Shown here: piece by piece, positions 45,671 to 52,737 of the stretch
Layout: each line of letters begins with the position of its first letter
Position numbering within the stretch: position 1 is the stretch's first letter
Assembly: GCF_900113935.1 (NCBI RefSeq)
Contig: NZ_FORF01000012.1
Coordinates: forward strand, 62,001-126,000
Direction of reading: 5' to 3'
Length of the DNA stretch: 64,000 nt
Source of the DNA: Aquamicrobium aerolatum DSM 21857
GTDB taxonomy: Bacteria > Pseudomonadota > Alphaproteobacteria > Rhizobiales > Rhizobiaceae
Translations under genes and position numbers: made by a program
Notes under the pieces: generated by a model
Seen by the model: only the letters and a program-made list of their open reading frames with translations
The model's database searches: none
Told to the model about the DNA's origin: nothing

Positions 45671-46171
45671 TCAATTCTTGAACTTCGACACCAACGCGTT
45701 CGCCACATTGGCTGGAACGAACGGGTGAATGTTGCCACCCATGGAAGCTATCTGGCGCACGAGTGTGGCAGTAATAGAACGTACAGCCGGGCTTGCCGGC
45801 AGAAAAACCGTATGAAGCTGCGGCGCCATAGTGCCGTTCATGCCGGCCATCTGCATTTCATAGTCAAGATCGGTGCCATCGCGCAGCCCGCGGATCAGCA
45901 GAGTCGCCTCATGCTCTCGGGCAACATCGACCAGCAAGCCTTTGAATGAAACGATCTTCAGCCGTTGCGCATCCGCGCCATAGGCTGCTTTCGCCCATTC
46001 GCTGATGAGCGCAACACGTTCTTCGAACGTGAAAAGCGGCTGCTTGGACGCCTGGATGCCGATACCTATGACCACCTGGTCTGCAAGCGCCAACGCACCC
46101 GCAAGCACGTCTGCGTGACCATTTGTCATCGGGTCAAAGGACCCTGCATAGAATGCGATGCGTTGCTTCAT
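45671..46171 (-). CDS. coaD: Phosphopantetheine adenylyltransferase
   Basis: CoaD makes dephospho-CoA from 4'-phosphopantetheine and ATP, the penultimate step of coenzyme A synthesis. The 166-residue protein has the nucleotidyltransferase motif [15 protein letters not shown] (H18), [18 protein letters not shown] and the C-terminal ATP-binding [15 protein letters not shown] (usually S-S-T; here S-I-T-A-T). A predicted promoter with -10 TACAAT lies 48 bp upstream and contains a LexA-like box. Confidence 0.95.
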
Positions 46172-46218: not shown

Positions 46219-46246
46219 ATTGTACGGAGATGAACCTGTGATGAAC
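46219..46246. promoter_or_regulatory. LexA-like box and predicted coaD -10 element
   Basis: GAAC-CTGTGAT-GAAC (46232-46246) is an exact GAAC-N7-GAAC direct repeat, the reverse complement of the alphaproteobacterial SOS box GTTC-N7-GTTC. Reading left, TACAAT (plus 46219-46224) would be the -10 of coaD, with the box in the spacer/-35 region. Reading right, the 44-residue ORF starts 100 bp away. Which gene responds, if either, is open. Confidence 0.6.
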
Positions 46247-46298
46247 GCCACCCTCAGCGCAGGTTCAACCGTTGCGACTAAAATCACAACGAATATGA

Positions 46299-46317
46299 AA
46301 CGAAAGTCTGTTTCGTT
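46299..46317. promoter_or_regulatory. Inverted repeat before the small ORF
   Basis: AACGAAA (46299-46305) and TTTCGTT (46311-46317) are inverted copies around a 5-nt loop, ending 29 bp before the ATG. A possible promoter (TTGCGA at 46272-46277 and TATGAA at 46294-46299, 16-nt spacer) lies just upstream, so the hairpin would sit in the 5' leader. Confidence 0.4.
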
Positions 46318-46346
46318 CGTTGATAGAGGACGAAGGAGTGACGGGA

Positions 46347-46481
46347 ATGATGATCTACCTGCTTGCTGCTACCATGACACTGGCGATGCTGATCGCCACT
46401 GCTTTCGGCCTTCACAACGAAGCGCAGAACGCCCGCCTGGAACGGCAGCGCCGGGATACCCAGCGCTACCGTATGGGCTGA
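46347..46481 (+). CDS. Putative small membrane protein, 44 residues
   Basis: The ORF has a strong ribosome site, AAGGAG (46333-46338), 8 nt before the ATG. Residues 1-22 (MMIYLLAATMTLAMLIATA plus FGL) form one hydrophobic helix; residues 23-44 are polar and basic (RLERQRRDTQRYRMG). It fills an otherwise empty 311-bp gap and stops 1 bp before the convergent gyrA stop. A LexA-like box lies 100 bp upstream. I do not recognise a named family. Small single-helix proteins under LexA control include Caulobacter SidA, a division inhibitor; this is an architectural analogy only, with no sequence similarity claimed. Confidence 0.6.
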   Translation: MMIYLLAATMTLAMLIATAFGLHNEAQNARLERQRRDTQRYRMG

Positions 46482-52049: not shown

Positions 52050-52083
52050 GTTCTTATTATGTTCTCGCCGAACGCACTGTCAA
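52050..52083 (-). promoter_or_regulatory. ssb promoter with LexA box over the -10
   Basis: On the minus strand TTGACA (plus 52078-52083), a 16-nt spacer and CATAAT (52056-52061) form a near-consensus promoter 110 bp before ssb. GTTC-TTATTAT-GTTC (52050-52064) matches the alphaproteobacterial LexA site exactly and covers the -10 box, so repressor binding would block transcription. Confidence 0.82.
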
Positions 52084-52722: not shown

Positions 52723-52737
52723 GTTCGCTCTCTGTTC
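52723..52737 (+). promoter_or_regulatory. LexA box upstream of uvrA
   Basis: GTTC-GCTCTCT-GTTC (52723-52737) is an exact match to the alphaproteobacterial SOS box, 141 bp before the uvrA start. A clear -35/-10 pair could not be placed with confidence beside it. Confidence 0.75.

Follow-up and report, generated by a model that had tools for sequence, protein, structure and literature searches.

The FeuPQ two-component system of Sinorhizobium meliloti acts in cyclic glucan export and root-nodule invasion and is activated by a plant peptide, as described in excerpts of three reports (PMC3616915, PMC12486126, PMC5539429). In the same excerpts FeuN appears as a periplasmic protein which restrains FeuQ and is the known small modulator linked to FeuP (PMC12486126), TTCA-N7-TTCA is given as the candidate FeuP site (Motif 3; PMC3616915), and S. 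meliloti is credited with a further FeuP/FeuQ-like pair, SMc02366/SMc02367 (PMC5539429). MgrB is described, in abstracts, as a small membrane inhibitor of PhoQ (PMC2789325, PMC10576120).

The window analysed here is a stretch of 64,000 nucleotides from Aquamicrobium aerolatum in which a 44-residue ORF, preceded by an exact GAAC-N7-GAAC, lies between coaD and gyrA. The first-pass annotation had taken the repeat for a LexA-like box and the product for a possible SOS-induced small membrane protein, perhaps a division regulator, with SidA as its comparison. SidA of Caulobacter is a small single-helix inner-membrane protein which is under LexA control and acts on the division machinery, and LexA requires the final C of GAAC. 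The reading favoured here, with good but not full assurance, is that the ORF is the gene of an inner-membrane protein of 44 residues, and that its control would lie with FeuP, and probably with an ECF-type (EcfG-like) sigma factor too, and not with LexA. The features concerned are the following.

45671..46171, minus strand: coaD, the divergent neighbour, whose homologue is annotated coaD in S. meliloti
46231..46267, plus strand: proposed FeuP operator TGAACCTGTGATGAACGCCACCCTCAGCGCAGGTTCA, 37 bp, TGA-N8-TGA-N9-TCA-N8-TCA, proposed from genome counts and its conserved distance from the ORF
46232..46246, plus strand: GAACCTGTGATGAAC, the 'LexA box' of the first-pass annotation, an exact GAAC-N7-GAAC forming the distal half of the 37-bp operator
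46279..46284, plus strand: P1, TAAAAT, candidate -10 of the FeuP-activated promoter, 11 nt past the operator and conserved in position
46297..46321, plus strand: P2, GAAAC-N16-CGTT, candidate ECF-sigma (EcfG-like) promoter, recognised by a loosened pattern in leaders
46333-46338, plus strand: Shine-Dalgarno AAGGAG, 8 nt 5' of the ATG at 46347
46347..46481, plus strand: the small gene, a 44-residue ORF with its stop at 46479-46481, having homologues, synonymous differences and a predicted single helix
46483..49263, minus strand: the convergent neighbour, presumably gyrA, its name being recognised from its translation
52050..52064, minus strand: GAACATAATAAGAAC, an exact SOS box upstream of ssb, the control for the LexA comparison

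The sequence facts of the first-pass annotation (the GAAC-N7-GAAC repeat, AAGGAG 8 nt before the ATG, the 44-residue ORF, the hydrophobic segment and the basic tail) proved exact. Residues 1-22 of the ORF are hydrophobic, with a 19-residue mean hydropathy of up to 2.0, and the basic tail holds six Arg, two Glu and one Asp. AlphaFold2, run from the single sequence of the 44-residue protein, gave one helix over residues 3-42 with a mean pLDDT of 88. No family of Pfam or NCBIfam reached its cut-off with the three members of the small-gene product that were tried.

When 60 relatives were searched for the 44-residue sequence, 32 had matches at E <= 1, and the strong matches lie at the coaD locus. 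The loci compared were the best 80 among the matches listed for a coaD query, and they are phylogenetically uneven, with many from Mesorhizobium. Locus L006 (3 kb without coaD), other loci without coaD and L031 (a duplicate of L003) were omitted. Three coaD gaps shorter than 100 nt were left uncounted: L062 has its gap at the edge of a contig, and the other two, from Bartonella, measure 18 nt. By HMM the ORF was found in 15 of the 18 coaD gaps of one locus set and in 71 of the 77 of a second, most of these matches being so by construction as the HMM was trained on ORFs found by pattern; those outside the training set are L014, L016, L017, L018, L028 and L101. On the opposite strand of the coaD gaps the HMM gave zero matches. 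Three of its nine misses (L010, L012 and L104) do have the ORF, with the stop past the cut edge of the gap, another three (L035, L093 and L099) are loci where no gyrA was found adjoining coaD, and in the coaD gaps of L011, L102 and L107 the HMM found no match to the small gene. The gap of L107, from Phyllobacterium calauticae, has no recognised ORF but does have GAAC-N7-GAAC, exact and as far from coaD as usual.

The 81 distinct coding sequences span 41-52 residues and truncation is absent among them, their openness itself being by construction. Stops are found in frame +1 of all 81 and in frame +2 of 31. The ratio dN/dS, computed for 1663 of the 3240 pairs, has a median of 0.38 and is below 1 in 98% of them, and close pairs differ by nine synonymous and one nonsynonymous changes, 11 and four, and 15 and three. 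By this pattern of substitution and conservation the ORF is a true conserved coding gene. The first-pass annotation had supposed a small single-helix membrane protein gene, under the usual gene-calling size, which should have counterparts in related coaD gaps and mostly synonymous differences; the homologues present in most of these gaps, the synonymous bias and the helix model all bear it out. Moreover, among 16 hand-picked members M10 is invariant in the helix and A17 and T18 are kept in at least 90%, a conservation which suggests a protein partner.

When the upstream DNA of 81 loci was aligned, GAAC-N7-GAAC was revealed as half of a longer element made of two 11-bp direct pairs placed face to face. 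In the 82 ORF-bearing gaps (the duplicate L031 removed) this operator is matched exactly in 63, with one mismatch in 12, with two in 2 and with three or more in 5. At most one mismatch is thus seen in 75 of the 82 gaps vs 0.05% of shuffles, and a best match with at most two mismatches is reached in 0.5% of shuffled leaders. Among 69 distinct operators, each letter of TGAA in the two left half-sites has an information content of 1.89-2.00 bits, and the final C of GAAC one of 1.37 and 1.01 bits, the fourth-position A being kept in 69 and 68 of the 69 and the T at position 34 in all of them; the loci were picked by the TGA/TCA pattern and part of these figures is therefore by construction, since T, G and A belonged to the selecting pattern whereas the fourth-position A, the T at 34 and the final C did not. 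The end of the operator lies at a median of 80 nt from the ATG (interquartile range 80-81, range 62-106) and its distance from coaD varies from 50 to 1237 nt. Judged by this fixed spacing on one side and variable spacing on the other, the four-half-site element belongs to the small gene.

The repeats are of OmpR type, and for this reason ChvI and BvrR were considered as regulators. ChvI was rejected as its motifs in the published excerpts, TTGC-N3-GCAA and N-GCC-N8-GCC, differ, and BvrR as no matching motif letters occur in excerpts of the literature on it. A site of the TTCA-N7-TTCA type is present in front of the small gene. The distal pair of the window, TGAA-N7-TGAA, is exactly the reverse complement of the FeuP motif, and the proximal pair is TCA-N8-TTCA, that is the conserved form TCA-N7-TTCA with one more base. 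The genome also encodes a FeuP orthologue whose own operon bears the motif: of nine loci with PF00486 in the source genome, taken as 3-kb stretches, only one holds an exact TGAA-N7-TGAA or TTCA-N7-TTCA. This locus encodes a 103-aa exported protein, a response regulator and a sensor kinase, the motif lies just before the unit, and the response regulator is 83.6% identical to the annotated S. meliloti FeuP (in feuN-feuP-feuQ).

Matches to FeuP at E <= 1e-70 were found in 57 of 60 genomes, with an identity of 65-100% in 56 and of 56% in the remaining one (G051). An exact TTCA-N7-TTCA stands 308-505 nt upstream of feuP in all 30 loci fetched, and a small exported ORF between motif and feuP is recognisable in most of the 30, not in all. 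No exact TTCA-N7-TTCA lies within 700 nt of the Met taken as the start of the ndvA-like gene in the source genome.

In S. meliloti the motif TTCA-N7-TTCA occurs upstream of feuN and ndvA, both in CP090106.1. This 3.72-Mb sequence of strain Ak57 is labelled plasmid pSymB and carries coaD, carB and feuPQ, so that the label is probably wrong. The exact four-half-site operator occurs in it at two places, and at seven when one mismatch is allowed, the control giving 0. One exact operator is situated 109 nt from coaD, and a 43-aa ORF (MGLALFSMAMFFAMVVATIHALRDEDRDRA...) begins 82 nt after it, with GGAAC-N17-CGTT in front of this homologue; the gene table of CP090106.1, which is incomplete, has no entry there. 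The other exact operator precedes a 57-aa hypothetical protein (1156883-1157056) near AMP nucleosidase.

Two candidate promoters follow the operator. Of 69 relatives, 68 have an A at the 14th position past it, and at the 13th a T is seen in 42 and a C in 18; the window has an A at this 13th position, its TAAAAT starting one base earlier, at position 12. Past the TTCA-N7-TTCA of feuP, TA is found at positions 13-14 in all 28 distinct loci, two of the 30 having dropped out of this count, and the spacing to the -10 is similar between the small-gene operator and the feuP motif. The strict form TTCA-N7-TTCA-N11-TANNNT had 0 matches in S. meliloti; most of the promoters compared have N12. The consensus of EcfG promoters is GGAAC-N16/17-CGTT. 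A pattern G[GAC]AAC-N15-17-CGT[TA] occurs in 71 of 80 distinct leaders as compared with 0.5% of shuffles; of these 71 elements, 65 end 21-24 nt before the ATG. Most relatives have GAAAC as their -35 instead of GGAAC. The second element looks like an ECF promoter, probably of the EcfG kind.

The exact four-half-site pattern was found at two places in the A. aerolatum genome and at 123 places in 50 of 60 related genomes, these including a TGACA sub-class; the pattern read backwards gave 0 in the source genome and in all 60. Seven genomes (G017, G027, G029, G033, G042, G053 and G056) have a FeuP match and no exact four-half-site operator. The operator is likewise absent from the three genomes in which FeuP had no match (chance 0.0035 if independent), and these are the smallest ones. 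Operators of the TGACA version lie 355-369 bp from genes of FeuP paralogues (54-55% identity) in three genomes (G046:C70:17754-17790, G049:C86:18920-18956 and G043:C116:7553-7589), the paralogue copy of G043 having an internal stop. It is as if paralogous regulators had split in site letters with the same geometry kept.

Downstream of the operators elsewhere there are mostly small single-helix or signal-peptide proteins, as seen in 52 flanks chosen by eye among the TGAAC-like places listed; the flank script, limited to hydrophobic N-termini preceded by a Shine-Dalgarno, came back empty for 9 of 53 loci, that of the window among them, and some of its finds are doubtful. The eight genomes belonging to the genus (G000-G007) all have a protein of 52-55 aa behind the second operator place, and in the source genome the protein behind it (L112:1289-1456, G000:C17) belongs to a 52-57-aa family near amn. 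In nine aligned members of this family there are two N-terminal Arg and a single helix, and the short tail, probably periplasmic, has two Cys that never vary, so the protein near amn looks more MgrB-like in layout than the 44-aa protein does. Homology of the 44-aa and 52-57-aa families is unsupported (hhalign probability 5%, six columns). In two genomes of different families (L179, G006:C1, and L221, G045:C10) the operator lies 74-93 nt before similar exported proteins that contain VTTDLNVRTGPG and VTGDVNLRAGPS, which by eye resemble an SH3-type domain.

A LexA site at the box, with a SidA-like SOS division inhibitor as product, is a highly improbable account of these data. It would fit a product that is small and single-helix, and a repeat that is exact in the source strain and in 43 of 77 operators. 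Nevertheless the final C drifts to T in relatives, and the longer operator also precedes unrelated envelope genes. Both the base pattern and the A/T content are unlike those of the exact SOS boxes of ssb loci: from 36 genomes 30 such loci were fetched, and an exact GAAC-N7-GAAC with an A/T-rich interior stands upstream in 24 of them and is missing in six. In addition GAAC-N7-GAAC alone is not clearly beyond chance, as it occurs five times in the window vs a shuffled mean of 2.32, a count reached in 14 of 100 shuffles, and its 148 exact copies in the genome vs 103 of the reversed pattern are a modest excess. The LexA/SOS control put forward in the first-pass annotation is thus unsupported, given the drifting C and the contrast with the exact, A/T-rich boxes of ssb, and support for the division inhibitor falls along with it. 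Since the box of the source strain is exact, weak LexA binding may be conceivable there. Another exact GAAC-N7-GAAC, GAACAGAGAGCGAAC (52723-52737, minus strand), lies just before a gene reading as uvrA and is probably a real SOS box.

Ownership of the operator by another OmpR-family regulator, CenR foremost, would leave the gene as one for an envelope-stress small protein, and it seems rather unlikely. In an excerpt on Rhodobacter sphaeroides, CenR recognises TGA-N8-TGA, usually 5' of the envelope genes that it activates (PMC9275681), and this spacing is identical to that of the operator. However, conservation here extends past TGA to TGAA and GTTCA, the CenR-dependent srlA repeat given for S. 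meliloti in another excerpt is a different one, AGTCAC-N6-GTGACT (PMC9561847), and of the nine PF00486 loci, taken as one group in which cenR is not told apart, the feuP-like one alone has TTCA-N7-TTCA inside its 3 kb. That the element is an RNA hairpin, for which GAACCTG...CAGGTTC can pair in the source strain, or a control element of coaD, between which and the ORF it sits, and no operator of the small gene, is extremely improbable: related genomes have the same element at many further sites, its distance is fixed to the ORF and not to coaD, and a -10-like hexamer lies downstream.

Under control by FeuP, osmotic or envelope stress would cause FeuQ to phosphorylate FeuP, and FeuP-P would occupy 46231-46267 in a Pho-box-like way beside the -10 at 46279 and turn P1 on, the Pho-box manner of activation serving as the comparison. 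General stress would turn the small gene on through P2. The product would probably leave only a very short N-terminal end on the outer side of the membrane, and the positive-inside rule predicts a cytoplasmic place for its basic helical tail. It would probably bind another envelope-stress membrane protein, most simply a sensor or transporter of the regulon; FeuQ or another regulon protein as partner is a guess. A bolder and unlikely, though not implausible, extension would be that FeuP, by way of a four-half-site operator spread over the Hyphomicrobiales, drives two tiny inner-membrane proteins of opposite layout, the 44-aa one with its tail inside and the 52-57-aa one near amn with its two-cysteine tail outside, which tune FeuQ or its targets from both sides, as an MgrB-like feedback layer beyond FeuN, the 44-aa one being also on a general stress sigma factor.

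No small gene between coaD and gyrA was found in literature titles and abstracts, and it may already stand in the list of FeuP-dependent genes (Griffitts 2008) or in supplements. The main text of the S. meliloti small-proteome paper, in the excerpts to which this applies, names no coaD, kdtB or gyrA, its tables being outside this scope (PMC10117765). The published candidate FeuP site is TTCA-N7-TTCA only, shorter than the four-half-site operator, and the long operator, nearly without chance matches, would allow a cheap reading of the FeuP regulon in Hyphomicrobiales genomes and points to conserved small envelope proteins in its core. Moreover an OmpR-type operator can mimic the alphaproteobacterial SOS box, as GAAC and 11-bp repeats occur in both.

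Among the known systems SidA is alike, by description and not by sequence, in being a small single-helix inner-membrane protein, and unlike in its LexA control, which is unsupported for the 44-aa gene. MgrB, likened without sequence comparison, is also a small single-helix membrane protein, and the 44-aa gene would likewise be switched on by an envelope two-component regulator, but its product has an apparently reversed layout, with the tail inside, and no cysteine pair. The FeuPQ/FeuN regulon, as far as excerpts describe it (PMC3616915), resembles the present locus in the half-site letters, the 11-bp repeat, the spacing to the -10 and a small envelope product, and both the operator and a homologue next to coaD are present in S. 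meliloti. The two differ in that the feuN promoter has one pair whereas the small gene has four half-sites in facing pairs, and in that FeuN is periplasmic whereas the 44-aa product is predicted to be a membrane protein with a cytoplasmic tail.
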